A DNA stretch of 64,000 bases from Manis javanica. Lineage: Eukaryota; Chordata; Mammalia; Pholidota; Manidae. Positions 13,031 to 64,000 of this stretch are shown here, one piece after another (the stretch's first letter is position 1; each line of letters begins with the position of its first letter). Below the pieces are notes generated by a model that was not told where the DNA came from, searched no databases, and saw only the letters and a list, made by a program, of their open reading frames with translations. Made by a program: the position numbers and the translations under genes. Where the stretch lies: NCBI RefSeq assembly GCF_040802235.1, contig NC_133169.1, positions 45,267,034 to 45,331,033 of the forward strand. The letters are read 5' to 3'.

Positions 13031-13034
13031 TAAA

Positions 13035-16775: not shown

Positions 16776-16776
16776 A

Positions 16777-16833
<57 letters not shown>
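16776..16833 (+). repeat. (CA)n microsatellite
   Basis: About 28 CA units with one early TA interruption, 100 bases upstream of OR2T copy 2 and inside its presumed intron. The left arm has only a short GTGT stretch near 2688-2705. Confidence 0.95.
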
Positions 16834-16837
<4 letters not shown>

Positions 16838-16914
16838 AGCCATATGCACACACGCAATAAAGAGTCATTCAGCAGGTGGCATCTCAGGAGTGCTCCATTA
16901 CTTCTCTCCTTGGT

Positions 16915-16930
16915 GGGCCAGGTGAAATCA
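16915..16930 (+). other. Candidate splice acceptor before OR2T copy 2 coding exon
   Basis: A pyrimidine-rich run (ttacttctctccttgg) leads to GGGCCAG at 16915-16921, then GTGAAATC and the ATG at 16930. The GGGCCAG|GTGAAATC core is kept in the left arm before copy 1. OR coding exons typically begin a few bases before the ATG in this way. Confidence 0.4.
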
Positions 16931-17876: not shown

Positions 17877-18479
17877 GAAACTGATATCAACATATTTTCC
17901 TTCACTCTACATTGTATGTTTAGAATCTTATCAGCATTATTCTTCACACTCACATAGCACTGTGTCTCATCTAATTTTGCACCTCTTCTAAGTATTGGTT
18001 CCATGTAGGAGAAAACTCAATTTTATAAACTTTCTCCATTCAAAATGCTTTATACAATCATTATATAAGTTACATATACTAAGGTTGATAACTGCACTCT
18101 CTGTAGAAGAATATCCATATTCTTAGGAATATATAACAAAAATATTTATAGGAAAAATATCATGTGAAAGCATGAAATTGATTTAAATGATAGGGGGAGG
18201 AGAAAAATGTTAAAACAAAGAAGGTAAAATATGAACAACTGGAGAGTCTTGGTAAAGAGCGGGTAGGTGTTGTTTGAACCGTTCATACCCATGATACTTT
18301 TCTATAAAAGTAAAATTTTCCCATATAAACAGTTGAAATGTCAATCCTCCCACCTTTTTTGAGTCTTTGTCCTTTCCCATTTTTATTGTAATCTGTTAGG
18401 TGGCAGTGTATATAACACACTGTCTTTAAAAACACTCTTTTTACAGTGCTGAATCTTTACTGAGACAATTACCTGTATG

Positions 18480-22879: not shown

Positions 22880-23743
22880 ATGAAAAGGCAGAAAAAAACT
22901 TGTTCAATCCAAAATTCCTCAAACACAAGAAAGAGGGCTAAGTGAAACTGAAATCACCAATCTTAATGAAAAATAATTCAAAATAAAAGTCATAGGCATG
23001 TGAATGGAGCTACAGAAAAATATTCAAGATCTAATGAAGGAATTCAAGACAGAGATAGATACTGTGAAAAATACAGTAGCTGAAATGAAACATACAATGT
23101 AGGGACTAAAAGCAGATCAGATGAGTAGAGATTAAAAATTGGATAGCAATTAGAGAACAGGAATACAAAGAAGCTGAGGCAGAGAGAGAAAAAAAGGATC
23201 TCTATGAATGAAAGAATATTAAGAAAACTGTGGGACCTATCAAAATGGAACAATATTTGCATTCTAGGGATACCAGAAGAAGAGACAGAAAAAGGGATAG
23301 AAAGTGTGTTTGAAGAAATAATTGATGAAAACTTCCCCATTATTTGGAAGGAAATAGTCTCTCAGGCCATGGGAGTCCACAGATCTCCAAACACAAGAGA
23401 CCCAAGGAGGACAACACCAAGACATATGATAATTAAATTGGCAATGATCAAGGACAGGAATATAGTATTAAAAGCAGCCAGAGAGAGAAAAAAGATCACC
23501 TACAAAGGAAAACCCATCAAGCTGTCATCAGACTTCTCAGCAGAAACCTTACAGGCCAAAACGGAGTGGCATGATATGTTCAATGCAATGTAACAGAAGG
23601 GCCTTCAACCAAGAATACTCTATCTGGAAAGATTGTCTTTTAAGTTTGAAGGAGGGATTAAACGATTTTCAGATATGCAAAAGTTGAGGGAATTTACTTC
23701 CCACAAACCATCTCTGCAGTGTATTTTAAAGGGACTGCTATAG
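22880..23743 (+). pseudogene. L1 A ORF1 (RNA-binding chaperone) relic
   Basis: ORF1p coats L1 RNA as a trimeric nucleic-acid chaperone. The likely start is the ATG at 22880 (MKRQKKTCSIQNS). The coiled-coil part is broken by stops. The RRM and C-terminal domain are best kept at 23204-23593: NNICILGIPEEETEKGIE, then NFPIIWKEI, then RDPRRTTPRHMIIKLAMIKD and YKGKPIKLSSDFSAETLQ. The usual HIIIK is HMIIK and the usual ARREWHD is AKTEWHD. A stop follows NAM, and C-terminal text (KGLQPRILYLERLSFKFEGG) continues after it. Confidence 0.85.
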
Positions 23744-24048
23744 ATGGAAGTGTTCCTAAGGCTAAATAGCTTTCACCAGAGAAAATAAAACCACAGTAAA
23801 GGAAGCACACCAATTCATTATTATCCAAATGCAAAATTAAATCAGCTACCCAAAAAGTCAATCAAAGGATCCACAAACAGTACAGAATATGACACCTAAC
23901 ATACAAAGAGTGGAGGAGGAAGACTAAGAAGGGAGAAAAAAGTTTTCAGATTGCATTTGTAATAGCATAATAAGTGAGTTAAGATAAACTGTTGGATAGT
24001 AAGGGAACGATCCTTGAACCTTTGGTAACTACTAATCCAAAGCCTGTA

Positions 24049-26200
24049 ATGGCAATAAGAACATGTCTATCGATAATCACCCTAAATGTAAATGGTCTGA
24101 ATGCACCAATCAAAAGACATAGAGCTACAGAATGAATAGACAAGCAAGACCCATCTATGTGCTGCCTACAAGAGACTCACTTCAAACCCAAGGACATACA
24201 CAGACTAAAAGTGAAGAGATGAAAAAAGATATTTCAATAGGGGAATTCAATAGGGGAAAAAAAGCAAGAGGTGAAATACTTGTACCAGATAGAATAGACT
24301 TCAAAACAAATAAAGTAACAAAATGCAAAGAAGAACATTACATAATTATAAAGGAGTGCATCCAACAAGAGGATATAACGATTATAAATATCCATGAACC
24401 TAACATAGGAACATCTACATATGTGAAACAAACACTAACAGAAATAGAGGGGGAAATAGAATGCAATACATTAACTTTAGGAGACTTCAATGCACCACTC
24501 ATTCCAAAGGACAGATCAACCAGACAGAAAATAAGTAAGGACACAAAGGGACTGAACAACACATTAGAACAGATGGACCTAACAGACATTTACAGAATAC
24601 TCCACCCAAAAGTAGCAGGATACACATTCTTCTCAAGTGTACATGGAAAATTTTCCACAATAGATCGCATACTAGGCCACAAAAAGAGTAAATTTAAACA
24701 TATTGAAATTGTACCAACCAACTTCTCAGATCAAAAAGGTATGAAATTGGAAATAAATTGTGAAAAGAAAACAAAAAGAACCACAAATACATGGAGGCTT
24801 AACATCATACTTCTAAATAATCAGTGGATCAATGACCAAATTAAAACAAAGATCAAGCAATATATGGATACAAATGAAAACAACAGCTCAATGCCCATAT
24901 TCTGTGGGACACAGTGAATGTAGTTCTTTGAGGAAATTATACAGCAATTCAGGCCTTTCTAAACAAGGAAGAACAATTGCAAATAAACAGTCTGATTTCA
25001 AAAATAGTGAAAATAGAAAAACAATAACAAATGAGGCCCAAAATCAATAGAAGGAGGGACATAATAAAGATCAGAGAAGAAATAAATAAAATTGAGAAGA
25101 ATAAAACAATAGAAAGGATTAATGAAACTAAGAGCTAGTTCTTTGAGAAAATAAACAAAATAGATAAACCCCTAGATAGACTAATCAAGAAAAAGAGAGA
25201 GTGTGCCCACATAAACAGAATCAGAAATGAGAAAGGAAAAATCACTATGGACACCACAGAAATACAAATTATTAGAGAATACTATAACAAATTATATGCT
25301 AACAAATTAGATAATCTAGAACAAAAGGACAACTTTCTAGAAAAATACAGCTTTCCAAGACTGACCCAGGAAGAAACTGAAAATCAGTACAGACCAATTA
25401 TCAGCAATGAAATTGAATCAGTAATCAAAAAACTACCTAAGATCAAAATCTTGGACCAGATAGCTTCACTGCTAAATTTTATCAGACATTTAGAGAAGAC
25501 CTAATATCCATCCTCCTTAAAGTTTTCCAAAAGTAGAAGAGGAAAGAATACTTTCAACGTCATTCTATGAAGCCAGCATCACTCTAATACCAAAACCAGA
25601 CAAAGACACCACAAAAAAAAAATGTTACAGATCAATATCCCTGAAGAACATAGATGCAAAAATGCTCAGCAAAATACTAGCAAACTGAATTAAAAAATAC
25701 ATCAAAAAGATCATACATCATAATCAAGTAGGATTTATTCCAGTGATGCAAGGATGTTACACTATTCAAAAATCCAACATCATCCACTACATCAACAAAA
25801 AGGACAAAAATCACATGATCATCTCCATAGATGCTGAAAAATCATCTGGAAAAATCCAACATCCATTCATGATAAAAACTCTCAACTAAATGAGTATAGA
25901 GGGCAAGTACCTCAATATAATGAAGGCCATATAGGAGAAACCCAAAGCCAAGATCATATTTAAGAGTGAAAAGCTGGAAGCTTTTGCTCTAAGATTGGGG
26001 ACAAGACAAAGATGCCCAGTCTCCCCACATTTATTCAACATAGTACTGGAGGTCCAAGCCACAGCAACTAACAGCATAAAGTAATCAAAGGCATCCATAT
26101 TTGCAAGGAACAAAGTAAATTGTCACTCTTTGCAGAGGACATGATACTGTATATAAAACCACTAAGGAATCCACACCAAAAGTACTAGAACTAATATCTT
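24049..26200 (+). pseudogene. L1 A ORF2 (endonuclease/reverse transcriptase), 5' part
   Basis: ORF2p nicks DNA and reverse-transcribes L1 RNA in place. The start is placed at the ATG giving MAIRTCLSIITLNVNGLNAP, the usual beginning of the AP-type endonuclease. 24132-24917 keeps much of the endonuclease (GDFNAPL, TIDRILGHKKS). The RT region is fragmented (25247-25504 keeps the fingers, [13 protein letters not shown]). The catalytic FADD reads FAED (26129-26140), so one aspartate is lost. The frame is then cut by insertion B and resumes at 34265. Confidence 0.85.
26189..26200 (+). repeat. Target-site duplication, left copy, for L1 B
   Basis: aactaatatctt, identical to 34253-34264. It flanks the 8.05-kb insertion exactly, and removing the insertion plus one copy restores contiguous L1 A text. 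Confidence 0.88.
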
Positions 26201-26400
26201 TTTCTTGTGGATAATTATTTTTTATTGAGGAGTAGTTGACATGCAGTATTACATTAGATTCAGGTGTACAACACAGTGATTCAACATTTATATACATGAT
26301 AATTCTAGCTACCAGCTATCACCATACAAAAAATGATATTCCTTATGCTATACATAACATCCCAGTTACTTATTTATTGTACAATTGGAAGTCTGTACTA
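26201..26400 (-). repeat. Second 3'-transduced segment of L1 B (old L1M 3' end)
   Basis: The segment lies between the A9 tract of the retroviral tail (26409-26401) and the target duplication. On the minus strand it ends ...gtcaactactcctcaataaaa, an L1M 3' terminus. It has an AATAAA (26226-26221) about 15 bases before a short A-run that abuts the duplication. Elements C and D lack it: D ends at the retroviral A-tract, and C is cut before this point. Read-through to a second poly(A) signal explains it best. Confidence 0.65.
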
Positions 26401-28060
26401 TTTTTTTTTCTGAGAGGGCATCTCTCATATTTATTGATCCAATGGTTGTTAACAACAATAAAACTCTGTATAGGGGAGTCAATGTTCAATGAACAATTAT
26501 TAATCCACCCCAAGCCTAATTTGCATCAGTCTCCAATCTTCTGAAGCATAATGAACAAGTTCTTACATGGAGAACAAATTCTTACATAGTGAAAAATTAC
26601 ATGGTGAACAGTACAAGGGCAGTCATCACAGAAACTTTTGGTTTCGATCACGCATTATAAACTATAAACAATCAGTTCAAATATGAATATTCATTTGATT
26701 TTTATACTTGATTTTTATGTGGATACCACATTTCTCTCTTCATTACTATTATTTTTAATAAAATGCTGCAGTGGTAGGTAGATGCAAAATAAAGGTAGAA
26801 AACATAGTTTAGTGTTGTAAGAGAGCAAATGTAGATGATCAGGTGTGTGCCTGTAGACTATGTGTTAATCCAAGCTAGACACAGGCAATAAAATTTACTG
26901 GATCTATACTGTAAATTTTACAGTAGATTTCTCTCAAAACAGGGGGGGTGAGGTTCTAAGCCTCACCTCTGTTGATCCCCAATTTCTTACCTGATGGCCA
27001 CCCTGCGACTGTGCCTGTCTTAGGTTGTTCCTCCCTTGAGGAATCTTACCCGTCTCTGGCTAACCAGTCATCTTCCGGGGCCATACAGGGAAATGTAAAG
27101 TTGGTAAGTGAGAGAGAAGCCATATTGTTTGAAAAGGTTAGCTTTTTACTTCTTTGTATATTTATGCCCTGTGGCTTCTATGCCCAGCATTTGTCTTGAG
27201 GTATCTTTACCACTTGGAGGAATTATGATACTCAGTAAATTCAATATGAGGCACGGATTCTACTTAAGGGTTGTAATTAAGAAGGAAGAATAAAAGCTAT
27301 AGAAGTAGCAGGCAGAAGAAAACATGGGAAGATTGATTATTTCTTTGACATATCTTATTGCAGAGTAACTTTAGCATGTATAGGTTTTAACCTACTAATT
27401 AAATGGCGTACACACATTGACATAATAGGAGTACAGTTACAAAGCCAAAGCAGACCTATAATTACCAGCCATCTCCAGTGAAACCAAGAAAACCAGGTAG
27501 GCACCTTAGGCATTTGTGGAAACTTACCTATGATATGGTGGATATTGTCCAACTGAACTTGAACAGTCTGAGAGAAATCAGACAAATTAAAACAACACAT
27601 TCCTGGGGACTGTTCACATCCCATATGTTCTTTTAACAGTAGATAGTCTGTAGTTGTAAGATTTTGGAGCACTACAACTTGCACTTCTCCTAATTCTTGG
27701 TTGAGTTCCAACAGTATAGATCCAGTAAATTTGTTGTTTTACTGTATGCACAGGACAGCTTAGAAATCTCCTTCGTCATTCCCATGGCAAGTCCAGGAAC
27801 CAGTGGGATGAATGCAGCTACAGCTGTAGAAGCATCTGGATCTTTGTTCAGGTTTTTTAATGATCATCTTCTGGTATGAGTCTTCCAGAGAGTGCTGATA
27901 TTGGAAGTTCTTCTTCATATCGTATCTTAGATCATTTTCTGGGTAGCCAAATTAGGCTTGATCCTCTGTATAAACACAAACAGACCCTTTGCCTACACTT
28001 TGATATGCCCTTTATACCATTGTGTAGAACTCATTGGAGGTCACCACACAGGAACTGCTA
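26401..28060 (-). mobile_element. Fossil class I ERV fragment (env TM region plus LTR end) in the tail of L1 B
   Basis: Retroviral fossil, 3' end only. Parts in minus-strand order: a surface/fusion-proximal stretch; the env transmembrane ectodomain with a leucine-rich LQN segment and a CX6CC cysteine motif (gamma-type, class I); a W-rich membrane-proximal part and a hydrophobic anchor (the readable frame is 27711-27355); about 0.6 kb of unassigned sequence; and a putative U3-R stretch starting TGTGGTATCCAC near 26731 and holding AATAAA at 26435-26430. An A9 tract follows. No gag, pol or 5' LTR is present. The copy is broken. The same fragment follows L1 C and accompanies L1 D; roughly 6% difference from D over one 300-base stretch (hand count) suggests a fairly recent spread. 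Confidence 0.78.
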
Positions 28061-28250
28061 TTTTTTTTTCTTTTTTGTTTTTTTAAGAGAAAGGAGTATT
28101 ATCAGAAAAATGTATTTCCGTAGGAGATCATCTGACACCCTTTAAGTGATGAAAATTAAGGATATTTAAAGCATGCATTAATCGTTGATTTACAGTTAGT
28201 TTTATCCTATCAGGGAGTAATCCCCCTTTTCTTTCTTTCTTTTTTTTGTT
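28061..28250 (-). repeat. Internal L1 A-tract and linker of element B
   Basis: In minus-strand order, the L1 3' UTR ends in ...gattaatgataac, then an A-rich run with GAAAG repeats, then about 165 bases of sequence I do not recognise (gggggattactccctgat start), then another A-rich run before the retroviral fragment. Element C has the same arrangement at 40672-40846. Element D lacks the linker: its retroviral fragment adjoins one A-run directly. Confidence 0.7.
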
Positions 28251-28573
28251 ATCATTAATCTATACTTACATGACGAATATTATGTTTACTAGTCTCTCCC
28301 CTATACCAGGTCCCCCCTATAAACCCCTTTACAGTCACTGTCCATCAGCATAGCAAAATGTAGAACCACTACTTGTCTTCTCTGTGTTGTACAACCCTCC
28401 CCTTTCTCCCACTACTCATGCATGCTAATCTTAATACCCCCCTTCTTCTTCCCCCCCCTTATCTCTCCCTACCCACCCATCCTCCCAAGTTCCTTTCCCT
28501 TTGGTACTTGTTAGTCCATTCTTGGGTTCTGTGATTCTGCTGCTGTTTTGTTCCTTCAGTTTTTCCTTTGTTC

Positions 28574-31500
28574 TTATGCTCCAAATATGAGTGAAATGAT
28601 TTGGTATTTCTCTTTCTCCGCTTGGCTTATTTCACTGAGAATATTACCCTCCAGCTCCATCCATGTTGCTGTAAATGGTAGGATTTGCCCTCTTCTTATG
28701 GCTGAGTAGTATTCCATTGTGTATATGTACCATATCTGCTTTATCCATTCATCTACCGATGGACATTTAGGTTGCTTCCAATTCTTGGCTATTGTAAATA
28801 GTGCTGTGATAAACATAGGGGTGCATCTGTCTTTCTCAAACTTGATTGCTGCATTCTTAGGGTAAATTCTTAGGAGTGGAATTCCTGGGTCAAATGGTAA
28901 GTCTGTTTTGAGCAATTTGAAGAACCTCCATACTGCTTTTCACTATGGTTGAACTAATTTACATTCCCACTCAGCAGTGTAGGAGGGTTCCCCTTTCCCC
29001 ACAGCCTCACCAACATTTGTTGTTGTTTGTCTTTTGGATGGCAGCCATCCTTGCTGGTGTAAGGTGATACCTCATTGTAGTTTTAATTTGCATTTCTCTG
29101 ATAATTAGCGATGTTGGGCTTCTTTTCATGTGTCTGTTGGCCATCTGTATTTCTTTTTTAGAGAACTGTCTGTTCAGTTCCTCTGCCCATTTTTTAATTG
29201 GATTATTTGTTTTTTGATTGTTGAGGCATGTGAGCTCTTTATATATTCTGGATGTCAAGCCTTTATCGGATCTGTCATTTTCAAATATATTCTCTCATAC
29301 TTTAGGGTTCCTTTTTGTTCTATTGATGGTATCTTTTTCTGTACAGAAGCTCTTCAGCTTAATATAGTCCCACTTGTTCATTTTTGCTGTTGTTTTCCTT
29401 GCCCGGTGAGATATGTTCAAGAAGAGGTCACTCATGTTTATGTCTAAGAGGTTTTTGCCTATGTTTTATTCCAAGAGTTTAATGGTTTCATGACTTACAC
29501 TCAAGTCTTTGATCCATTTTGAGTTCACCTTTGTATATGGGGTTAGACAATGATCCAGTTTCATTCTCCTACATGTAGCTGTCCAGTTTTCCCAGCACCA
29601 TCTGTTGAAGAGACTGTCATTTTGCCATTGTATGTCCATGGCTCCTTTATCAAATGTTAATTGACCATATATGTCTGGGTTAATGTCTGGATTCTCTAGT
29701 CTGTTCATTGGTCTGTGGCTCTGTTCTTGTGCCAGTACCAAATTGTCTTGATTACTATGGCTTTATAGTAGAGCTTGAAGTTGGAGAGTGAGATCCAGCC
29801 TACTTTATTCTTCTTTCTCAGGATTACTTTGACTTTTTGGGGTCTTTGGTGACTCCATATGAATTTTTGAAGTATTTGTTTCAGTTCATTGAAGAATGAT
29901 GCTGGTAGTTTCATAGGGATTGCAACAAATCTGTATATTGCTTTGGGCAGGATGGCCATTTTGACAATATAAATTCTTCCTAGCCACGAGCATGGGATGA
30001 GTTTCCATTTGTTAGTGTTCCCTTTAATTTCTCTTAAGAGTGACTTGTACTTTTCTGGGTATAGGTCTTTCACTTCTTTGGTTAGGTTTATTCCTAGGTA
30101 TTTTATTCTTTTTGATGCAATTGTGAATGGAATTGTTTTCCTGATTTCTCTTTCTACTGGTTCATTGTTAGTGTATAGGAAAGCCACAGATTTCTGTGTG
30201 TTAATTTTATATCCTGCAACTTTGCTGTATTCCGATATCTGTCCTAGTAGTTTTGGGGTGGAGTCTTAAGGGTTTTTTATGTACAGAATCATGTCACCTG
30301 CAGATAGTGACAGTTTAACTTCTTCTTTACCAATCTGTATTCCCTGTATTTTTTGGTTTTGTCTGATTGCCTTGGCTAGGACCTCCAGTACTATGTTAAA
30401 TAACAGTGGGGTGAGTGGGAATCCCTGTCTAGTTCCTGGTCTCAGAGGAAAAGCTTTCTTTCAGCTTCTTGGTGTTCAGTATAAAGTTGGCTGTGGGTTT
30501 CTCATAAATGGCCTTTATTATGTTGAGGTACTTGCACTCTATTCCCATTTTGCTGAGAGTTTTTATCATGAATGGATGTTGACCTTTGTCAAATGCTTTT
30601 TCAGCATCCATGGAGATAATCATGTGGTTTTTGTCTTTCTTTTTGTTGATGTGGTGGATGATGTTGATGGACTTTCGAATGTTGTACCATCCTTGCATCC
30701 CTGGGATGAATCCCACTTGGTCACGGTGTACGATCCTTTTGATGTATTTTTGAACTCGTTTTGCTAATATTTTGTTGAGTAGTTTTGCATCTATGTTCAT
30801 CAGGGATATTGGTCTGTAGTTTTCTTTTTTGCTGTGTTCTTTGCCTGGTTTTGGTATTAGGGTGATGTTTGCTTCATAGAATGAGTTTGGAAGTATCCCT
30901 TCCTCTTCTATTTTTTGGAAAACTTTAATGAGAATGGGTATTATGTCTTCCCTGTATGTCTGATAAAATTCTGAGGTGAATCCAGCTGGCCCTGGGGTTT
31001 TGTTCTTGGGTAGTTTTTTGATTACCAATTCAATTTCATTGCTGGTAATTTGTCTGTTTAGATTTTCTGTTTCTTTCTGTGTCAGTGTTGGAAGGTTTTA
31101 CTTTTCTAGTAAGTTGTCCATTTCTCCTAGATTTCCCAGCTTGTTAGCATATAGGTTTTCATAATACTCTCTAATAATTCTTTGTATTTCTGTGGGGTCC
31201 ATTGTGATTTTTCCTTTCTCGTTTCTGATTCTGTTGATTTGTGTTGACTCTCTTTTCCTCTTAATAAGTCTGGCTAGAGGCTTATCTATTTTGTTTATTT
31301 TCTCAAAGAACCAGCTCTTTGTTCCATTGATTTTTGCTATTGTTTTATTCTTCTCAATTTTATGTATTTCTTCTCTCTTCTTTATTATATCCCTCCTTCT
31401 GCTGACCTTAGACCTCAATTGTTCTTCTTTCTCCAATTTTGATAATTGTAACATTAGACCATTCAATTGGGATTGTTCTTCCTTTTTTACATATACCTGG

Positions 31501-32402
31501 ATTACTATATACTTTCCTCTTAAGACTGCCTCTGCTGTGTCCCACAGTAGTTGGGGCCTTGTGTTGTTGTTGTCGTTTGTTTCCATATATTTCTGGATCT
31601 CCATTTTGATTTGGTCATTGATCCATTGATTATTTAGGAGAGTGTTGTTAAGCCTCCATGTGTTTTTGAGCCTTTTTGCTTTTTTTGTACAGTTTATTTC
31701 TAGTTTTATGCCTTTGTGGTCTGAAAAGTTGGTTGGTAGGATTTCAATCTTTTGGAATATACTGAGGCTCTTTTTGTGGCCTAATATGTGGTCTATTCTG
31801 GAGAATGTTCCATGTGCACTTCAGAAGATTGTGTATCCTGTTGCTTTTGGATGTAGACCTCTGTAGATGTCTATTAGGTCCAACTCTTCTAGTGAGTTGT
31901 TCAGTGCCTCTGTGTTTTTACTTATTTTCTGTCTGGTGGATCTGTCCTTTGTAGTGAGTGGTGTATTGAAGTCTCCTAGAATGAATGCATTGCATTCTAT
32001 TTCCTCTTTTAGTTCTGTTTTTATATGTTTCAGATATGTTGTTGCTCTTGTATTGGGTGCATATATATTTATAATGGTTATATCCTCTTGTTGGACTGAG
32101 CCCTTTATCATTATGTAATATCCTTCTTTATCTTTTGTTACTTTCTTTATTTTGAAGTCTGCTTTGTCTGATACCAGAATTGCAACACCTGCTTTCTTCT
32201 CTCTGTTGTTTACATGAAATATCTTTTTTCATCCCTTTACTTTAAGTCTGTGCATAACTTTGGGTTTGAGGTGAGTCTCTTTTAAGCAGCATATGGATGG
32301 ATCTTGCTTTTTTATCCATTCTATTACTCTGTGTCTTTTGATTGGTGCATTCAGTCCATTTACATTTAGGGTGATTATTGAAAGGTATGTACTTATTTCC
32401 AT
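28574..32402 (-). pseudogene. L1 B ORF2 relic, full length
   Basis: From MEISTYLSIITLNVNGLNAP (start 32402) to EKEKYQIISLIFGA (end 28574). The span is 3.83 kb, the same as about 1276 codons, matching the normal ORF2 size. In order: endonuclease (GDFNTPLT near 32000), RT fingers and palm (30429-31028 with [20 protein letters not shown]-type text and [20 protein letters not shown]), thumb/C-terminal parts (29705-30187), and the cysteine-region and tail (28574-28915). FADD reads SAGD (30292-30303). At least seven frame breaks; inactive. Confidence 0.9.
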
Positions 32403-32597
32403 TGCAGGCTTTAAGTTTTTGGTGACCAAAGGTTCAGGGTTAGCTTCTTTACTATCATATTGTCTAACTTAGCTCACTTGTTGAGCTAGTATAAACACGG
32501 TCTGATGATTCTTTATTTGTCTCCCTTCTTATTCCTCCTCCTCCTTTCTTCATATATTGGGTGTTCTGTCCTGTGCTCTTTTTAGGAGTGCTCCCAT

Positions 32598-33451
32598 CTA
32601 GAGCAGTCCCTGTAGGATGCCCTGTAGAGGTGTTTTGTGGGAGGCAAATTCCCTCAACTTTTGCTTGTTTGGGAATTGTTTAATCTCTCTTTCATATTTA
32701 AATGATAATCGTGCTGGATACAGTAGTCTTCTTTCGAGGCCCTTCTGTTTCATTGCATTAAGTATATCATGCCATTCTCTTCTGGCCTGTAGGGTTTCTG
32801 TTGAGAATTCTGATGATATCCTGATGGGTTTTCCTTTGTAGGTAACCTTTTTTTTCTCTCTGGCTGCCTTTAATACTTTGTCCTTGTCTTTGATCTTTGC
32901 CATTTTAATTATTATGTGTCTAGGTGTTGCCCTCCTTGGATCCCTTGTCATGGGAGTTCTGTGTACCTCTGTGGTCTGAGAGGCCATTTCCTCCCCTAGT
33001 TTGGGGAAATTTTCAGAAATTATTTCTTCAAAGACACTTTCTATCCCTTTTCTCTCTCTTCTTCTTCTGGTACCCCTATAATATTGTTCCATTTTTATTG
33101 GTCACTCAGATCTCTTAGAATTCTTTCATTCCTGGAAATCCTTTCATCTGTCTCTGCATCTGCTTCTCTGCATTCCTGTTCTCTGTTTTCTAGTCCATTA
33201 ATTGTCTCTTGCATCTCGTCCATTCTTTTTTGAAGTCCTTCCAGAGCTTGTTTTATTTCTGTGTTCTCCCTCCTTAGTTCTCACATATTTCTCTGCAAGT
33301 CCATCAGCATGGTTATGACTTTTGTTTTGAATTCTTTTTCAGGAAGACTGGTTAAATCTATCTCCCCAGGTTTCTTCTCAGGGGAAGATGTAGAAGATGT
33401 CAAAGTTGTCTGGGTTAGTCTTGTCCGGATCATATTTTTTTGCCTTTTCAT
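32598..33451 (-). pseudogene. L1 B ORF1 relic
   Basis: Starts at MKRQKNMIRTRLTQTT (33451). The coiled-coil region (33400-33130) holds heptad-like text (KQALEGLQKRMDEMQETING) with an early TGA. The RRM/CTD (33092-32598) reads KGIESVFEEIISENFPKLGE, then RRATPRHIIIKMAKIKDKD, then ARREWHDILNAM, and ends GILQGLL then TAG. This is a normal ORF1 size (about 285 codons) with a stop and a shift in the N-terminal half. Confidence 0.88.
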
Positions 33452-34252
33452 GTTGATAGGTTCTATTGACTGTCAGCTGGGTGGGCCAAACTTTTCCCTT
33501 GCTACTGGCCTTTCTTTACTGGGACAACTGTGACCCCTAGTGGCTTGTATTGGGTAACTGTGTGTAGACTGGGTCTTTGTGTCTTGCCCGGCCAGCGTGA
33601 AGGAAGCTCCTTTACTGATGGTGTGGCCTGCCTTAGGCTGCTTCTCTGCTTTCACAGCACCAGGTGGGGTAATGGATGGGAGGCTGTTTGGCTGTTTACC
33701 TCCGTTGGGGGTCTCAGAACTGTTGCCATTGGGGTTAGTGTGCCCAGTTTTCTCTGTAATTTCCAGCCACTGGGCTCTGACCTGTGTTGTTTCTGTCCAG
33801 CTGTTACATCCCTGTCCCTTTAAGACTTTCAAAAAGCACTCACTTTTCTTTGTCACAGGGGTATCAGCTTTGGAACCTGCTCAGAGGTCTTGCTGCCCTA
33901 TTTCCCTAGTTTCCAGCCCTCCATGCATGCACTGTTTCTGTGCTCTGGTGTGGGTGGCTGTGGCTGGGTGTTTAGTAGTCCTGGACTCCCTCTCTCTCCC
34001 TGCTCTGACACCTCTCCTCTCGCCGGGAGCTGGAGGGAGGTGTGCTTGGGTCCCGGCAGGCTGGGGATTGTATCTTACCCCTTTCACCAGGCACTAGGCT
34101 CTCGCACGTGTGGATGTAGTCTGGCTGTTGTCCTGTGTCTTCTCATCTCTCTTTTAGGATTAGTTGTATTTGTTGTATTTTCAAAAATATATATGTTTTT
34201 GGGAGGAGATTCCCACTGTCCTACTCACACCACCATGTTGGCTCCGCCTCCA
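33452..34252 (-). promoter_or_regulatory. L1 B 5' UTR / internal promoter
   Basis: About 0.8 kb, GC-richer than the surroundings, beginning ggaggcggagccaacatggtgg. The YY1-type core AAGATGGC expected here (present in element C) reads AACATGGT, so the site is weakened. The sequence is alignable with 35313-36146 of element C but not with the monomeric 5' UTR of L1 A. Confidence 0.7.
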
Positions 34253-34264
34253 AACTAATATCTT
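34253..34264 (+). repeat. Target-site duplication, right copy, for L1 B
   Basis: aactaatatctt, matching 26189-26200. Confidence 0.88.
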
Positions 34265-35312
34265 AATTCAGCAAAGCTACAGGATATAAAATTCACACAC
34301 AGAAATCTGTTGCATTCCTATATGCTAATGAGAAACTAGCAGAGAGAGAAATCAGGATAACAATTCCATTCACAATTTCAACAAAAATTAAAATAACTAG
34401 GAATAAAGCTCATCAAGGAAGTGTAAGCGTTATACCCTGAAAACTCCAAGACACTCTTGAGAGCAATTAAAGAATACACCAACAAATGGAAATAAATCCC
34501 ATGCTCATGGATAGGAAGAAATATTGTTGTCAAAATGGCCATCCTGCCTAAAGCAATCTACAGATTCAATGCAGTCCCTATCTAAATAACAACAGCATTT
34601 TTCAACAAACCAGAACAAATAGTTCTAAAATTCATGTGGTACCACAAAAGACCCAGAATAGCCAAAAAAATCCTAAGAAGGAAGAGGAAAGAGGGGAGGA
34701 TCACACTTGCCGACTTCAAGCTCTACTAAAAAGCCACAGTAATCAAGACAATTTGGTACTGGGGCAAGAAGAGACCCATAGACCAATGAAATAGAACAGA
34801 GAGTCTAGACATAAGCCCACACATATATGGCCAATTAAAATATGATAAAGAAGCCATGGATATACAATGGGGTAAGACAGCCTCTTCAACAGCTGGTGTT
34901 GGCAAAACTGGACAGCTACATGTAAGAGAATGAAACTGGATTACTGTCTAACTCCACACAAAAAAGTAAACAAAAAATGGATCAAAGATCTGAATATAAG
35001 TCATAAAACCATAAAACTCTAAGAAAACGTATGTAAAACTCTCTTGAATATATACATGAGCAACTTTTTCATGAACATATCTCCTCGGTCAAGGGAAACA
35101 AAAGCAAAAATGAAAAAAATGGGATAACATCAAACTAAAAAGCTTCTATACATCAAAGGACAACATCAGTAAAACAAAAAGGCATCCTAACATATGGAAG
35201 AATACATTCATAAATGCCATATCTGATAAGGGGTTAACATCCAAAATATATAATGTGCACACATGCCTCAATACCCAAAAAGGAAATAACCCAATTAAAA
35301 AATAGGCAGAGG
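34253..35312 (+). mobile_element. L1 element A, second segment (ORF2 continuation)
   Basis: Opens with the right copy of the target duplication (34253-34264), then continues A's ORF2 C-terminal half. It includes 'ccaagacactcttgagagcaattaaag', 'atggccatcctgcctaaagc', 'cattcatgtggtaccac'-type blocks and 'agaatgaaactggattactgtctaac'. It stops in 'aattaaaaaataggcagagg', where element C begins, with GCAGAGG shared by both. The last 0.6 kb of ORF2 and the 3' UTR of A are not found after C. Confidence 0.85.
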
Positions 35313-35323
35313 CGGTTGGAGCC

Positions 35324-35331
35324 AAGATGGC
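35324..35331 (+). promoter_or_regulatory. YY1-type motif at the L1 C start
   Basis: AAGATGGC, about 14 bases from the element's 5' end. Human L1 has a YY1 site (GCCAAGATGGC) at the same place that sets the start of transcription. The match is seen; function is inferred. Confidence 0.55.
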
Positions 35332-36146
35332 AGCATGAGTAGAGCAGCAGAAATCTCCTCCCAAAACCACATATATTTATGAAAATATAACAAAGACATC
35401 TCTTCCTAGAATAGAGATCAGAGGACACAGGAAAACATTCAGACCACATCAACACCTGCGAGTACCTAGCGCCTCACAAAGGAGGTAAGATACAAGTCCC
35501 AAGCCCAGTGGGAACCAAGTGCTCCTCACCCAAGCTCCTGGTGGGAGGAGAGGAGTCAGAGCAGGGAGGGAGTGGGAGGCCAGGACTGGTAAACACCCAG
35601 CCCAAGTCATCCGGACCAGAGTGCAGACACAGTGCATGTGTGGGGTCTTGGATACTAGGGAAACAGGACAGCAAGACCTGTGAGAGGGTACCTGAGGCTG
35701 GCACCCGGGGATAAAGAAAAGCGAGTGACTTTTTTGTTGTTGTTGCGAATGCTTTTTGGAAGTCTTAAAGGGACAGGGACCCCAAAACCAGATGGAAGCA
35801 TCCTGGGACACTTAGTCAGGTGGCAGGGAATATGCGGATCTCAGGTAACTCTAACCGCCTGGGCAGCAGGGAGCATGGAGGACCCTCAAAGAGATAAATA
35901 GCCTCCCTGCCACTCCACCTCCAATGCAGCTCCAGCATATCGGAGTAGTGGCCCAAGGCAAGCCACACCCACAACAACAGTGGAGATAAACCCCATAGCG
36001 TCCAGGCAGGAATCAGAAGACCTATCTGCATGCAGCTGCCCAGCACAAGCCACTAGAGGTCGCTGTTCTCACAGGAGAGATAGGACACAAACCAACAAGT
36101 CTTCCAGCCGTCACTCGTGGCAGCTCTGCAAACTATCTCTATCACC

Positions 36147-36998
36147 ATGAAAAAGCAAAATTACAGGCAGACAAAGATCACAGAGTCAACACCTAAGAAG
36201 AAGACAGATATAACCAGTCTTTCTGAAAAATAATTCAAAATAAAAATCATAAACATGGTGATGGAGATGCAGAGAAATATACCAGAGCTAAGGGATGAAG
36301 TCTGGAGGGATTACAGATGCCTGGAAGGAGATTACAGAAGTGAAACAAACAGTGGAAGGATTTATGAGCAGAATGGATAAGATGCAAGAGGCCATAGATG
36401 GAATAGAAACCAGAGAACAGGAGTGCATAGAAGCTGACATAGAGAGAGATAAAAGGATCTCCAGGAATAAAACAATATTAAGAGAACTGTGTGATCAATT
36501 CAAAAGGAACAATATCTGTATTATAGGGGTACCAGAAGAAGAAGAGAAAAAGTGATAAAAAGTGTCTTTGAAGAAATAATTGCTCAAGACTTCCCCAAAC
36601 TGGGGGAGGAAGTAATCAAACAGACCACAGAAATACAGAGAACTCTCAACAGAAAGGACTGAAGGAGGACAACACCAAGACACAGAATAATTAAAAGGGC
36701 AAAGATCAAGGACAAGGAAAGAGTTTTAAAGGCAGCTAGAGAGAAAAAGGTCACCTATAAAGGAAAACCCATCAGTCTATCATCAGGCTTCTCAACAGAA
36801 ACCTTACAGGCCAGAAGAGAATGGCATGATATATTTAATGCAAAGAAACAGAAGGGCCCTGAACCAAGGATACAGTATCCAGCACAATTATCATGTAAAT
36901 ATGAAGGAGGGATTAAACAATTCCCAGACAAGCAAAAGTTGAGGGAATTTGCCTCCCACAAAAAACCTCTACAGGGTAATTTAGAGGGCCTGTTCTGA
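36147..36998 (+). pseudogene. L1 C ORF1 relic
   Basis: The likely start is MKKQNYRQTKITESTPKKK. Coiled-coil text (KQTVEGFMSRMDKMQEAIDG) leads into CDQFKRNNICIIGVPEEEE at 36295-36555. After a break the CTD text continues (TYKGKPISLSSGFSTETLQ near 36750-36800) to the stop at 36996-36998. The size is normal; several stops and shifts. Confidence 0.85.
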
Positions 36999-37313
36999 AC
37001 GGGAACACTCCTTAAACTAAACATATGTCACTAGAGAAAATAAAATCACAGCAAAGAAAGCAGACCAATGAAATACTAACTAAAGGCAAAAAAATAAAAT
37101 CAACTACCTACTAAAAGCAGTGAAAGGAAACACGAAAGAGCACAGAATAAAACAACCAACATATGAAGAATGGAGGAGGAGGAATAAGAAGGGAGAGAAG
37201 AAAAGAATCTAGGAACAGTGTATATGATAGCTCAATAAGTGAGTTCAGTTCGGCAGTAAGATACTAAAGAGGCTAACCTTCAACCTTTGGTAACCACGAA
37301 TTTAAAGCCTGCA

Positions 37314-40300
37314 ATGGCAATTAGTACATATCTTTCAATAGTCACTACAAATGTAAATGGACTGAATGCAGCAATCAAAAGACACAGAGAAATAGAATGG
37401 ATAAAAAAGCAAGAACCATCTATATGCTGCTTACAAGAAACTCACGTCAAATCCAAAGACATGAACATAGTAAAAGTCAAGGGATGAAAAAAACATATTT
37501 CAGGCAAACAACAGAGAGAAGAAAGCAAGGGTTGCAGTACTAATATCAGACAAAATAGACTTTAAAACAAAGAAAGTAACAAGAGATAAAGAAAGATATT
37601 ACATAATGATAAAGGGTTCAGTCCAATAAGAGGATATAATCACTCTAAATATATATGCACCCAACACAGGAGCACCAGCATATGTGAAGCAAATACTAGC
37701 AGAACTAAAGGGCGAAATAGAATGCAATGCATCCATTTTAGGAGACTTCAACATGCCACTCACCCCAAAGGATAGATCCACTGGGCAGAAAATAAATAAG
37801 GACACAGAGGCACAGAAAAAAACAGTAGAACAGATGGACCTAATAGACATCTATAGAACTCTACATCCAAAAGCAACAGGATATACATTCTTCTCAAGTG
37901 CACATGGAACATTCTTCAGAATAGACCACATACTAGCTCACGAAAAGAGCCTCAGTAAATTCCAAAATATTGAAATTCTACCAACTAACTTTTCAAACAA
38001 CAAAGGTATAAAAGTAGAAATAAATTCTACAAAAAACCCCAAAAAGGCTCACAAACACATGGAGGCTTAACAACATGGTCCTAAATAATCAATGGATAAA
38101 TGAACAAATTAATATAGAGATCAAGGAATATATGGAAACAAATGACAACAACAACACAAAGCCCCATCTTCTGTGGGACGCAGTGAAAGCAGTCTTAAGA
38201 GCAAAGTATATAGGGATCCAGGCACACTTGAAGAAGGAAGACCAATCCCAAATGAATAGTCTAACATCACAATTACCAAAAGTGGAAAAAGAAGAACGAA
38301 TGATGCCTAAAGTCAGCAGAAGGAGGGACATAATAAAGATCAAAGAAGAAATAAACAAAACTGAGAAGAATAAAACAATAGCAATAATCAATGAACCAAC
38401 AGCTGGTTCTTTGAGAAAATAAGCAAAATAGATAAGACTCTAGCCAAACTTATTAAGAGAAAAAGAGAATCAAAACACATCAACAGCATCAGAAATGAGA
38501 ATGAAAAAATCATAACAGACTCCACAGAAATACAAAGAGTTATTGAAGACTGCTATGAAAATCTATATGCCAACAAGCTGGAAAATCTAGAAGAAATGGA
38601 CAACTTCTTAGAAAAATAAAACCTTCCAAGACTGACTAAGGAAAAAACACAGAAGTTAAACAAAACAATTATGAGCAATGAAATTGAAACAGTAATAAAA
38701 AAACTTCCCAAAAACAAACCCCCCTGGCCAGTCGGCTTTACCTCGGAATTTTGTCAGTCATACAGGGAAGACATAATACCCATTCTCCTCAAAGTTTACC
38801 AAAAAATAGAAAAGGAGGGAACACTTCCAAACTCATTCTATGAATCCAACATCACCCTAATACCAAAACCAGGCAAAGACCCCACCACAAAAGAAAAATA
38901 CAGACCAATATCCCTGATGAATGTAGATGAAAAAATAATCAATAAAATATTAGCAAAACGAGTTCAAAAATACATCAAAAGGATCATACACCGTGACCAA
39001 GTGGGATTCATCCCAGGGATGCAAGGATGGTACAACATTCGAAAATCCATCAACATCATCCACCACATCAACAAAAAGAAAGATAAAAACCACATGATCA
39101 ACTACATAGACGTTGAAAAAGCATTTGAAAAAATTCAACATCCATTCATGATAAAAACTCTCTGCAAACTGGGTATAGAGGGCAAGTACCTTAACATAAT
39201 AAAGGCCATATGTGATAAACCCAAAGCCAACATCATACTGAACAGCGAGAAGCTGAAATCTTTTCCTCTAAGATCGGGAGAAAGACAGGAATGCCCACTC
39301 TCCTCACTGTTATTTAACCTAGTAATGGAGGTTGGTGCTTGCAAAACTGGAAAGCTACATGTAGGAGAATGAAACTGGACCAATGTCTAACCCATATACA
39401 AAAGTAAAATTGAAATGTATCAGAGACAAGAACGTAAGTCATGAAACCATAAAACTCTTAGAAAAAAACATAGGCAAATATCTCATAAACATGAGTGACC
39501 TCTTCTTGAACATTTCTCCCCAGGCAAGGAAAAGAAAAGCAAAAATGAACAAGTGGGACTATATTAAGCTGAAAAGCTTCTGTACAGCAAAAGACACCAT
39601 CAATAGAACAAAAAGGTACCCTACAGTATGGGAGAATATATTTGTAAATGACAGATCCAATAAAGGCTTGATGTCCAAAATATATTAAGAGCTCACCCAC
39701 CTCAACAAACAAAAAACAAATACTCCAATTAAAATGCGCAGAGGAACTGAACAGACAGTTCTCCAAAAAAGAAATACAGATGGCCAACAGACACATGAAA
39801 AGATGCTCCACATCGCTAATTATCAGAGAAATTCTAATTAAGACCACAATGAGATATCACCTTACACCTGTAAGGATGGCTGCCATCCAAAAGACAAACA
39901 ACAATAAATGTTGGTGAGGTTGTGGAGAAAGGGGAACCCTCCTACACTGCTGGTGGGAATGTAAATTAGTTCAACCATTGTGGAAAGCAGTATGGAGGTT
40001 CCTCAAAATGCTCAAAATAGACATACCATTTGACCCAGGCATTCCACTCCTAGGAATTTACCCTAAGAATGCAGAAATCAAGTTTGAAAAAGACAGATGC
40101 ACCCCTATGTTTATCGCAGCACTATTTACAATAGCCAAGAATTGGAAGCAAGCTAAATGTCCATTGACACATGAATGGATAAAGAAGATGTGGTACATAT
40201 ACACAATGGAATACTACTTAGCCACAAGAAGAAGGAAAATCCTATCATTTGCAGCAAGATGGATGGAGCTGGAGACTATTATGTTCAGTGAAATAAGCCA

Positions 40301-40340
40301 AGTGGAGAAAGAGAAATACCAAATGATTTCACTCATCTGA
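37314..40340 (+). pseudogene. L1 C ORF2 relic with internal deletion
   Basis: Starts MAISTYLSIVTTNVNGLNAA. The endonuclease is at 37314-38070 (GDFNMPLTPKDRSTG, FRIDHILAHEKSLSKFQ). A linker and RT fingers follow: [16 protein letters not shown] at 38671, [20 protein letters not shown], then [11 protein letters not shown]. At 39330 the text jumps to [10 protein letters not shown], the equivalent of the WQNWTAPCRRMKL part, so about 780 bases with FADD are absent. The C-terminal part (39383-40340) ends KEKYQMISLI. Also several stops. Dead. Confidence 0.88.
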
Positions 40341-40436
40341 GGAGTATAAGAACAAAGGAAAAACTGAAGGAACAAAACAGCTGCGACATTACAGAACCCA
40401 AGAATGCACTAACAAGTACCAAAGGGAAAGGAACTG

Positions 40437-40530
40437 GGGAGGATGGGTGGGTAGGGAGAGATAAGGGGGGGAAGAAGAAGGGGGGTATTAAGATTAGCAT
40501 GCATGGGGGGTGGGAGAAAGGGGAGGGCTG
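40437..40530 (+). other. G-rich polypurine run in the L1 3' UTR
   Basis: Many runs of three to seven G (GGGTGGGTAGGG, GGGGGGG, GGGGGGTGGGAG, GGGGAGGG), a potential G-quadruplex tract. Mammalian L1 3' UTRs commonly hold such a tract. B (28441-28500, as C-runs) and D (60310-60410) have it too. Confidence 0.75.
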
Positions 40531-40671
40531 TACAACACAGAGAAGACAAGTAGTGGTTCTACATTTTGCTATGCTGATGGACAGTGACTGTAAAGGGGTT
40601 TATAGGGGGGACCTGGTATAGGGGAGAGACTAGTAAACATAATATTTGTCATGTAAGTATAGATTAATGAT

Positions 40672-40846
40672 AACAAAAAAAAGAAAGAAAGAAAAGGGGG
40701 ATTACTCCCTGATAGGATTAAACTAACTGTAAATCAATGATTAAAGCATGCTTTAAATATCCTTAATTTTGATCATTTAAAGGGTGTCCGATGATTAGCT
40801 ATGGAAATGCATTTTTCTGATAATGTTCCTTTCACTTAAAAAAAAA
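40672..40846 (+). repeat. Internal A-tract and linker of element C
   Basis: AACAAAAAAAAGAAAG-type tract with no AATAAA in the 60 bases before it, then about 150 bases of unrecognised linker, then an A9 run (40838-40847) directly before the retroviral fragment. Same order as in B. Confidence 0.7.
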
Positions 40847-42066
40847 GCAGTTCCTGTGTGGTGATCTCCAATATGTTCTTCACAATGATATAAAGGGCGT
40901 ATCAAAGTGTAGGCAAAGGGTTTGTTTGTGTTTATACAGAGGATCAAAGCCTAATTTGGCTACCCAGAAAACGAATTAAGATGAGATATGAAGAAAAACT
41001 TCCAATATTCCCATGGTCTGGAAGAGTCATTCCAAAAGATGATCATCAAAAAACTTCAACAAATATCGTGGTGCTGTTGCAGTTTTACCTGCATTCATCC
41101 CAGCGTTTCCTGGACTTGTCATTGGAATGAAGAAGGAGATATCTAAGCTGGCCTGTCCATACAGTAAAACAACAATTTTGACTGGATCTATACTGTTGGA
41201 ACTCAACCAAGAATTAGGAGAACTGCAAGTTGCAGTTCTCCAAAATCGTGCGACTATAGACTACTGTTAAAAGAACATATGGGATGTGAACATTACCCAG
41301 GAATGTGTTGTTTTAATTTGTCTGATCTTTCTTAAACTATTCAAATTCAGTTAGACAATATCCATCATATCATTGATAAGTTTTCACAAATGTCTAGGGT
41401 GCCTAACTGGTTTTCTTGGTTTCACTGGAGATGGCTGGTAATTGTGGGTCTGCTTTAGTTATGTAGCTCTATTCCTATTATGTTAATGTGTGTGTGCAAT
41501 TTAATTAGTAGTTTAAAGCCTATACATGCTTATGTTACTCTACAAGAAGATACGTCAAAGAAATAATCAATCTTCCCATGTTTTCTTCCATCTGCTACTT
41601 CTATACCCTTTCTTCTTCCTTGCTAATTTCAACCCTTAAGAAGAATTCGTGCTTCATAACAAAATTACTGAGTATCATAATCCTTCCAAGTGGTAAAGAT
41701 ACCTCAAGACAAATGCTGGGCATAAAAGCCACAGGGCATAAATCTGTAAAGAAGTAAAAAGCTAATCTTTTCAAACAATATTGCTTCTCTCTCACTTACC
41801 AACTTTACATTTCCCTGTATGGCCCCAGAAGAAGACTGGTAACTCAGAGACAGGTAAGATTCCTCAGGGGAGGAACAACCTACGACAGGCACAGTCACAG
41901 GGGGGCCATCAGGTGAGAAATTGGGGATCAACAGAGGTGAGGCTTAAAACCCCATACCCCCTGTTTTGAGAGAAATCTTCTGTATCCATGGATGTTTTGT
42001 TGCCCTTGTCTAGCTTGGATTAATACTTAGTCTACAGGCCCACACCTGATCATCTACAATTGCTAT
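40847..42066 (+). mobile_element. Fossil class I ERV fragment in the tail of L1 C
   Basis: Same retroviral 3' piece as after L1 B: env surface end, fusion-proximal region, transmembrane ectodomain (about 41130-41460) and membrane anchor (to about 41560), then the non-coding part. It is broken and ends at the junction with the OR gene, so the LTR end is not present. Gamma-type by comparison with B and D. Confidence 0.75.
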
Positions 42067-58497: not shown

Positions 58498-60157
58498 TAT
58501 TTTTTTGTGGGGGAGGGCATCTCTAATATTTATTGATCAAATGGTTGTTAACAACAATAAAATTCTGTATAGGGGGGTCAATGCTCAATGCACAGTCATT
58601 AATCCATCTCAAGCCTAGTTCTCTTCAGTCTCCAATCTTCTGAAGCATAATGACCAAGTTCTTACATGGTGAACGAATTCTTACATAGTGAATAAGTTCT
58701 TACATGGTGAACAGTACAAGGGCAGTCATCACAGAAATTTTCGGTTTTGATCACGCATTATGAACTATAAACAATCTGGTCAAATATGAATATTCAATTG
58801 ATTTTTATACTTGATTTATATGTGGATACCACATTTCTCCCTTTATTATTATTATTACTTTTAATAAACTGATGAAGTGGTAGGTAGAATCAAGATAAAG
58901 GTAGAAAACATAGTTTAGTGTTGTAAGAGAGCAATTGTAGATGATCAGGTGTGTGCCTGTAGACTATGTGCTAATCCGAGCTATACCAGGGCAATAGAAC
59001 ATCCATGGATGCAGAAGCTTTCTCTCAACATGGGGGAGTGGGGGGTGAGGTTCTAAGCTTCACCACTGTTGTTCCCCAATTTCTCACCTGATAGCCCCCC
59101 TGTGAACTGTGCCTGTCTTAGGTTGTTCCTCCCTTGAGGAATCTTACCCGTCTCTGGCTAACCAGTCATCTTCCGGGGCCATACAGGGAAATGTAAAGTT
59201 GGTAAGTGAGAGAGAAGCCATATTGTTTGAAAAGGTTAGCTTTTTACTTCTTTTCAGATTTATGCCCTGTAACTTCTATGCCCAGCACTTGTCTCGAGGT
59301 ATCTTTACCACCTGGAGGAATTATGATACTCAGTAAATTCGATATGAGGCACGAATTCTATTTAAGGGTTGTAATAAGGAAGGAGGAAGAAAATCTATAG
59401 ATGTAGCATATAGAATAAAACATGGGAGGATTGATTATTTCTTTGACATATCTTCTTGTAGAGTACCTTAAGCATGTATAGGTTTTAAAATACTAACTAA
59501 CTTGCACACACATATTAACATAATAGGAATACAGTGACATAAACAAAGCAAATCTATAATTACCAGCCATCTCCAGTGAAGCCAAGAAAACCATTTAGAC
59601 ACCCTAGGCATTTGTGAAAATTAGTCTATGATATGATGGATATTGTCCAACTGTACATGAACAGTCTGACAGATGTCAGACAAATTAAAGCAACCCATTT
59701 CTGGGATCTGTTCACATCCCATAAGTTCTTTTAACTGTAGATAGTCTATAGTCATAAGATTTTGGAGCACTACAACTTGCACCCCTACCAACTTCTGATT
59801 GAGTTCCAACAGTACAGATCCAGTCAAATTCATTGTCTCACTGTATGCACACGCCAGCCTAAACATCTCTCTCCTCATTCCAATGGCAAGTCCAGGAAAC
59901 GGTGGGTGGACGCAGCCACAACCACAGCATCGCCTGGATCCCTTTGGAGGCTTTTTGATGATCATCTGCTGGCACGAGTCCTCCAGAGAGTGCTGATGCC
60001 GGAAGCTCCTCCTCATATCGTATCTTAGTTCATTTTCTGGGTAGCCAAGCTAGGCCTTGATCTTCTGCATAAAAACAAACAGACACTTTGCCCACACTTT
60101 AACATGCCCTCTATACCACTGTGCAGAACTCATTGGAGGTCAGCACACAGGAACTGA
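58498..60157 (-). mobile_element. Fossil class I ERV fragment (env TM region plus LTR end) in the tail of L1 D
   Basis: Third copy of the same retroviral piece. The readable env transmembrane-side frame (60016-59621) includes the fusion-proximal region and the LQN segment with the cysteine region, followed by the non-coding part and a putative U3-R end with AATAAA. It is broken and lacks gag, pol and the 5' LTR. Gamma-type (class I) by the overall pattern shared with B. Confidence 0.77.
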
Positions 60158-60501
60158 TTTTTTTTTAATCTTTATTCTACACTTATATGAAGAATACTAT
60201 GTTTACTATGCTCTCCTCTATATCAGGTCCCCCCCAAAAACCACATTACGGTCACTGTCCATCAGCATAGCAAAATGTAGAATCTCTACTTGTCCTCTCT
60301 GTGTTGTACAGCCCTCCCCTTTCTCCCTTCCCCCACTATGCATGCTAATCTTAATATCCCCCTTCTTCTTCTCCCCCTTATCCCCCCCTGCCCACCCATC
60401 CTCCCCAGTTTCTTTCCCTTTGGTACCTGTTAGTACATATTTGGGTTCTGTAATACTGCTGCTGTTTTGTTCCTTCAGTTTTTCCTTTTTTCTTATATTA
60501 C

Positions 60502-63500: not shown

Positions 63501-64000
63501 TATTCCTTGATCTCTATTTTGATTTGTTCATTGATCCATTGATTATTTAGAAGCATGTTGTTAAGCCTCCATGTGTTTGTGTGCCTTTTTGTTTTCTTTG
63601 TAGAATTTATTTCTAATTTTATGCCTTTGTGTTCTGAAAAATTGGTTGGTAGAATTTCCATATTTTGGAATTTACTGAGGCTCTTTTTGTGAGCTAGTAT
63701 GTGGTCTATTCTGGAGAATGTTCCATGTGCACTTGAGAAGAATGTATATCCTGTTGATTTTGGATGTAGAGTTCTATAGATGTCTGTTAGGTCCATCTGT
63801 TCTAGTGTGTTGTTCAATGCCTGTGTGTCCTTACTTATTTTCTGCCCAGTGGATTTATCCTTTGGGGTGAGTGGTGTGTTGATGTCTCCTAAGATGAATG
63901 CATTGCAGTCTATTTCCCTCTTTAGTTCTGTTACTATTTGTTTCACATATGCTGGTGCTCCTGTATTGGGTGCATATATATTTAGAATGGTTATATCCTC
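60502..64000 (-). pseudogene. L1 D ORF2, partial (5' end outside window)
   Basis: Endonuclease text at 63946-63452 (CNAFILGDINTPLTPKDKST, then FSRIDHILAHKKSLSKFQNM). RT at 63118-62156: [40 protein letters not shown], then [20 protein letters not shown] and a complete [11 protein letters not shown] (FADD at 62221-62210). Thumb and connection at 61991-61611 and 61556-61173, and the cysteine-containing C-terminus near 60930-60880 ([19 protein letters not shown]). Frames change at least five times, so it is inactive, but it is the best preserved RT core in the window. Confidence 0.88.

Follow-up and report, generated by a model that had tools for sequence, protein, structure and literature searches.

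The 3' untranslated regions (UTRs) of L1 elements are unrelated between mammalian groups, and to our knowledge the origin of a new one has rarely been seen directly. L1 3' transduction is the result of read-through of the L1 poly(A) site. The process is named in PMC6500023. The elements described below resemble such transductions in that flanking DNA follows an internal A-tract and is closed by a new poly(A) tail, with target duplications of their own. They differ from them in being fixed, layered and present in thousands of copies, and in that the transduced DNA is the 3' end of a retrovirus. The closest analogue is SINE-R of SVA, which derives from the env 3' end and the 3' LTR of HERV-K10 (PMC12593883). 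In both cases a retroviral env 3' part and LTR form the 3' end of an L1-mobilised element; here, however, they come from another retrovirus and are attached to an L1 with ORF1 and ORF2 domains, whereas the SVA composite is non-autonomous. In SVA_F1 a MAST2 exon was acquired by splicing (PMC12593883) and is likewise common to an amplified group, but that acquisition is at the 5' end of a non-autonomous element. Mammalian L1s have repeatedly taken up new 5' UTRs (PMC5872511), which likewise renews an L1 lineage by an unrelated terminal sequence; in the present case the 3' end is concerned, and the retroviral source is recognisable. Copying of a retroviral env mRNA by the L1 machinery is described for ARTenvV in Hippotraginae (PMC9604959), but as one retrocopy and not as an amplified L1 composite. 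PMC12584738 reports that the ERVs of Manis pentadactyla include beta-type elements whose env is gamma-type, and one element in which a LINE-1 lies between ENV and the 3' LTR. Among the open-licence PMC papers listed by the literature searches, none was seen to describe an L1 family whose 3' end is retroviral.

The window, the whole stretch of 64,000 nt analysed here, contains three L1s with a common non-L1 tail, B, C and D, which were found by self-alignment (Table 1). As stated in the preliminary description, all three are joined to one tail in one orientation relative to L1. The tail extends from 26399 to 28070 in B, from 40836 to 42064 in C and from 58498 to 60166 in D. The copies are 83-87% identical to each other across 1.2-1.7 kb and have the junction in common, and chance is thereby excluded. 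The tail of C is cut at 42064, before the LTR. Read in the direction of L1, B consists of the L1 body with its 3' UTR, an A-rich tract, 155 bp, a second A-tract, the retroviral piece, a third A-tract, approximately 200 bp, a short A-run and the target duplication. Position 26201, earlier given as the start of B, is the end of the extra 200-bp layer of old L1 sequence, and the A-tract of the LTR lies at 26401-26409. The presence of the L1's own A-tract inside the composite was borne out in B and C, where the additional 155 bp lie between two A-tracts; D is without this segment.

In the domain search, Transposase_22 and a dsRBD-like domain (ORF1) were detected in B at 32598-33101 and RVT_1 (ORF2) at 30429-31097; the ORF1 and ORF2 domains were detected in B, and the L1 identity of the bodies of C and D is given by alignment to B only. 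B and C are inserted at different points of the older L1 A, and D lies elsewhere, so these are three separate insertions. The visible junction of C, which starts in A, is the 5' one only. B 28204-28403 is 99% identical to C at about 40520-40720, the other shared 100-base steps being 78-96% identical; gene conversion between the inverted neighbours is possible.

Table 1. Features of the three L1 composites and of their surroundings in the window
Feature	Coordinates	Strand	Remarks
Older L1 A, 5' part, insertion target of B	22947..26198	+	75-80% to B, C, D; resumes at 34252
Older L1 A, part beyond B; C inserted at its end	34252..35312	+	self-alignment
B, whole element	26199-34251	minus	self-alignment
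B target duplication, left copy	26189..26198	.	AACTAATATC
B target duplication, right copy	34253..34262	.	AACTAATATC repeated
B extra 200-bp layer, read as 3' end of old L1	26199..26400	-	
B LTR part to poly(A) site	26412..26730	-	starts TGTGGTATCC after purine run; AATAAA at 26435; no U5
B retroviral piece (integrase-like end, as read from copy C; TM part of env; 3' non-coding sequence; LTR as far as the poly(A) site)	26412..28060	-	
B env transmembrane (TM) fragment	27355..27738	-	127-aa open frame, CX6CC
B 155-bp segment between two A-tracts	28087..28240	-	present in 23 copies including B and C
B full-length L1 body	28241..34251	-	reading frames broken into pieces; domains, self-alignment
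C, whole element	35313-42064	plus	self-alignment
C L1 body	35313..40664	+	ORF2 deletion at 39332/39333
C 155-bp segment	40682..40833	+	91% to B
C retroviral piece	40846..42064	+	stops short of LTR
C open frame resembling end of integrase DNA-binding domain	40894..41058	+	Pfam IN_DBD_C, below cut-off
D, whole element	58498-64000	minus	self-alignment; continues past window end
D retroviral piece	58513..60156	-	A-to-G cluster in env part
D L1 body	60176..64000	-	continues past window end

The retroviral piece of B comprises, in this order, the env frame, the env end, a purine run and the LTR, and ends about 20 bases past AATAAA. The env frame matches the solved chains named gp95 (E 2.4e-9) and ASLV fusion TM (E 2.5e-9), and 36 of 42 candidate database proteins are related to the TM fragment. 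The TM fragment with CX6CC that the preliminary description had reported is thus present in B, but D has lost the motif; at the LTR end, AATAAA and the closing A-tract were found as described. The LTR is represented by one part that stops at the poly(A) site, without the two LTRs with U5 and the internal genes of a provirus. A VNTR or hexamer array was detected in none of the three elements; the LTR of D contains one 19-base repeat of 3.3 copies. In C, the first part of the tail gives a Pfam match to the last part of an integrase DNA-binding domain that stays under the cut-off (E 0.0035; 17.1 bits against 21), and against the PDB the same stretch matches the integrase chains 3jca, 7usf and 5d7u weakly, at E 0.15-0.16 only. 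Chain 3jca is presumably betaretroviral. This weak match, which is used here solely for that purpose, makes the label of class I ERV doubtful for the source of the tail. An env surface domain seems to be absent, the integrase end leading straight to TM; the source may have been deleted there, or its RNA spliced.

Relatives with a U5-like continuation occur elsewhere in the genome. LTR ends with no following A-tract were found at 216 places, and at least 20 of these (20 among the 100 matches listed) have a U5-like continuation in common; three pairs among the matches listed are 7.3 kb apart, a spacing as in proviruses. One such locus, L049, was read over 2 kb and is 78% identical to the tail across 372 bp of env, 85% across 150 bp of post-env sequence and 93% across 44 bp of the LTR end. 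It continues past the poly(A) site of the tail, and upstream of TM, at the integrase-like stretch of the tail, it has an open frame. L049 is a relative, not the source. The tail, env and L1 had no relative in viral contigs or in those of prokaryote genomes; in one contig pattern search, 10 stretches fitted the pattern and none encoded a relative.

The source genome comprises 2,559,957,944 bases in 63 contigs. A count of loci and dating by divergence had been proposed in the preliminary description. The first 32 bases of the tail occur at 15,299 places with at most three mismatches, and at none in the reversed control. The query with the B tail returned 7,448 first-look candidates, the best 40 of which were scored and are all at least 90% identical; with D env there were 5,312, and the best 40 scored are at least 95% identical. 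Three samples were taken. The first consisted of 20 loci from the B-tail list (L009-L028), five of them picked because the match started after the 155-bp segment; L001-L008, which repeat B and L009-L015, were left out. The second was the best 10 of the D-env search, from which D itself (L029) was dropped while its duplicate L030 was counted, giving nine. Both are best-scoring hits and not a random draw. The third consisted of 10 loci picked from 386 places (at most two mismatches) at which the tail starts without a preceding A-tract. L1 lies directly upstream of the tail in 20/20, 9/9 and 6/10 loci, respectively, and the tail begins at the same base behind L1 across loci. The four misses (L039, L041, L044 and L046) are all in the sample without A-tract. 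The length filters, with 350 bases of room, left 36 L1 3' UTR ends for comparison. The tail is present in 32/32 at 82.9% identity or more, most of these having been fetched for the tail, and in 0/4 at 82.4% or less, the latter being older L1s nearby. Acquisition of the tail thus falls in the younger lineage. On C1, three inverted pairs of tail starts (1822993/1827770, 4500620/4505397 and 23476186/23480963) are each exactly 4,777 bases apart, which suggests a duplicated inverted unit.

The marks of L1 insertion are present in the target duplication of B and in variable 5' truncation among the genome copies: in the 20 loci of the first sample L1 is truncated at many points, and the 5' UTR is kept in some. 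By automatic search, exact target duplications of at least 9 bases were found in 10/20 copies and of at least 11 bases in 8/20, compared with 6/380 and 1/380, respectively, when left and right flanks of different loci were combined as a control; the same search found no duplication in the other 10/20 copies. The 3' flanks of L031-L038 differ from one another. L030 (C14:44226824) is a duplicate of D at a distance of about 1.1 Mb and has the same 3' flank.

The composition of the tail differs between branches. Among the genome copies, the 155-bp segment occurs in B-type as well as D-type elements and is absent from some of each; most simply, it would be ancestral and repeatedly lost between the A-tracts. 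No Rfam family reached the threshold for it in the window, where two matches below threshold have E 0.36-0.37. The 200-bp layer behind the LTR was found in 16 of the 20 B-type copies and in none of 10 D-type loci, a count that takes in D and its duplicate; 17 copies including B show a median difference of 5.4%. The layer therefore arose in the B branch and was then amplified. In B this layer is 63-72% identical to seven other places in the window, and we read it as an old L1 3' end. A further class has a direct junction, in which position 67 of the L1 3' UTR is joined straight to the retroviral piece. At least 19 of the 386 tail starts without A-tract begin with GACTAA (19 among the 100 matches listed), and the polypurine 3' UTR is absent from the two whose sequence was read, L043 and L048. 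The shared CAGTT suggests that the junction GACTAA|CAGTTCC may be a microhomology join; splicing as its source was dropped, as no GT/AG fits.

Among the B-type copies, the parts of the composite have diverged to a similar extent. In L009-L028, env (all 20 copies) has a median pairwise difference of 4.5%, post-env sequence of 4.6%, the LTR of 5.2% and the ORF2 end (18 copies) of 4.6%, which is what joint copying of all parts would give. If about 2.2e-9 per site per year is taken as the neutral rate, this would correspond to roughly 10 million years, in a sample biased to close copies. For C and D compared with B, the K2P distance of env (0.12-0.21) exceeds that of the ORF2 end (0.06-0.09). Against the genome copies, C differs by 11.8% in env and 7.7% in the ORF2 end, and D by 15% and 5.1%, respectively. 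The edits considered below explain part of the env excess of D and none of that of C. Distances among 31 copies gave a Mantel r of 0.18 for ORF2 and env (101 of 2000 permutations as high), 0.32 for ORF2 and post-env (48 of 2000) and 0.76 for env and post-env (0 of 2000). The weak correlation of ORF2 with env allows for exchange between L1 bodies and tails, or for purifying selection on ORF2.

The env fragments of D-type (L031-L038) and B-type copies (B and L009-L028) are separated by 68 fixed differences in 668 sites. From B-type to D-type, 37 of the 68 changes are A-to-G, versus 8 T-to-C (p 2.5e-5), and C, used as outgroup, has A at 34 and G at 2 of the 37 sites. All but one of the 37 (36/37) lie between positions 39 and 406 of the fragment. 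G is avoided on the 5' side (1/37 vs 38/174, p 0.004) and favoured on the 3' side (14/35 vs 30/175, p 0.005); D alone has 38 A-to-G among 85 changes, with 5' G at 1/38. Clustered, strand-biased A-to-G changes with such neighbours are the pattern of RNA A-to-I editing and agree with the neighbour preference of ADAR. The cluster is common to D and eight loci with different 3' flanks, and was therefore already present in the founder of the branch. Strand bias and neighbour context indicate that this founder was probably an ADAR-edited RNA. Ordinary mutation or gene conversion without RNA editing is quite unlikely as the origin of the excess. The polarity of the changes comes from one outgroup copy, C, and eight D-type copies were compared besides D and its duplicate, which leaves this explanation some room; the ratio of 37 to 8, the clustering and the neighbour context on both sides speak against it. 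If the D branch did arise from edited RNA, editing did not end the lineage and left a heritable mark.

It is highly probable that an L1 lineage extended its own 3' end by successive 3' transductions and was then amplified together with them. The starting L1, possibly already with the 155-bp segment and its A-tract, would have been located upstream of the pol/env end of an ERV. Its transcript would have run through its own poly(A) site and terminated at that of the retroviral LTR, and the entire RNA would have been copied by L1 target-primed reverse transcription. Later, the B branch would have gained the 200-bp 3' end of an old L1, other branches would have lost the 155-bp segment, and another class would have lost the polypurine 3' UTR of L1, bringing the retroviral piece directly behind L1; the D branch would stem from ADAR-edited RNA. 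No founder locus, in which one provirus would flank an L1 on either side, was found, and we therefore infer read-through as the founding event. The A-tracts between the layers argue for a series of transductions, as does the end of the retroviral piece at an mRNA-like poly(A) site beyond which the related provirus goes on, and the anatomy of a 3' transduction is present: an internal A-tract at the L1 end, non-L1 DNA, a poly(A) signal and an A-tract. Of the single read-through founder proposed in the preliminary description, the amplified composite is retained, but one transduction gives way to a layered series. We also favour, with less assurance, the wider reading that an active L1 lineage exchanged its 3' end for that of a retroviral transcript and thrived, with thousands of copies, nested additions, a class with the retroviral piece alone as 3' UTR and a multiplying branch from ADAR-hyperedited RNA. 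The case would show how an L1 parasite can rebuild its own 3' end from the tail of an old retrovirus plus later pieces. As each layer can still be recognised, comparing the branches can test in which order they were acquired, which poly(A) sites were used and whether the polypurine 3' UTR is needed.

Other origins of the composite were weighed against this series of transductions. A template switch of the L1 reverse transcriptase from a polyadenylated retroviral mRNA to L1 RNA, in one insertion that was then amplified, is an unlikely though real alternative for the founding join. Such a switch would suit a retroviral piece that is mRNA-like at its end and starts mid-gene right behind an A-tract, and splicing or truncation of the mRNA would account for the absent surface domain. 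Against it, the composite is built of several layers set off by A-tracts (the 155 bp, the retroviral piece and the 200 bp of old L1), and repeated read-through accounts for them by one mechanism. It is very improbable that the tail is an independent SINE-R-like retroposon to which L1s are merely adjacent. An env 3' part with an LTR to the poly(A) site has the anatomy of SINE-R, and 4/10 of the loci without A-tract have no L1 upstream, although these could be 5' truncations at the junction. L1 is directly upstream in 35 of the 39 loci fetched outside the window, with the tail starting at the same base, and 386 starts without A-tract compare with 15,299 starts in total (patterns and mismatch limits differ). 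The stand-alone retroposon was largely rejected on these two counts, and a tail occurring mostly without L1, which would have spoken against an amplified composite, was not observed in these non-random samples.

The chance that all copies are segmental duplicates of one locus is practically nil. The 3' flank common to D and L030 is of the kind expected from this process, which was kept as the explanation for that pair. B and C are at different positions in A, B has its own target duplication, as have half of the 20 copies searched, and L031-L038 are unlike in their 3' flanks; segmental duplication was rejected for the family as a whole. The sharing of flanking DNA by the copies, named beforehand as contrary to the composite, is thus limited to the exception of D and L030.

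The tail of C abuts an olfactory-receptor-like frame at 42065-42769 (+), the start of which is apparently lost. A deletion may have removed the 5' end of this olfactory-receptor-like gene together with the remainder of A and the missing end of C. A further olfactory-receptor frame, open over 341 aa, is located at 54506-55531 (-). A large inverted repeat (1508-6703 versus 12800-18037) with 66-82% identity contains frames that are olfactory-receptor-like by eye. A frame at 47662-48045 (-) is a likely MZT1 retrocopy. At 50796-51352 a 40-base unit is repeated in tandem in 14 copies.
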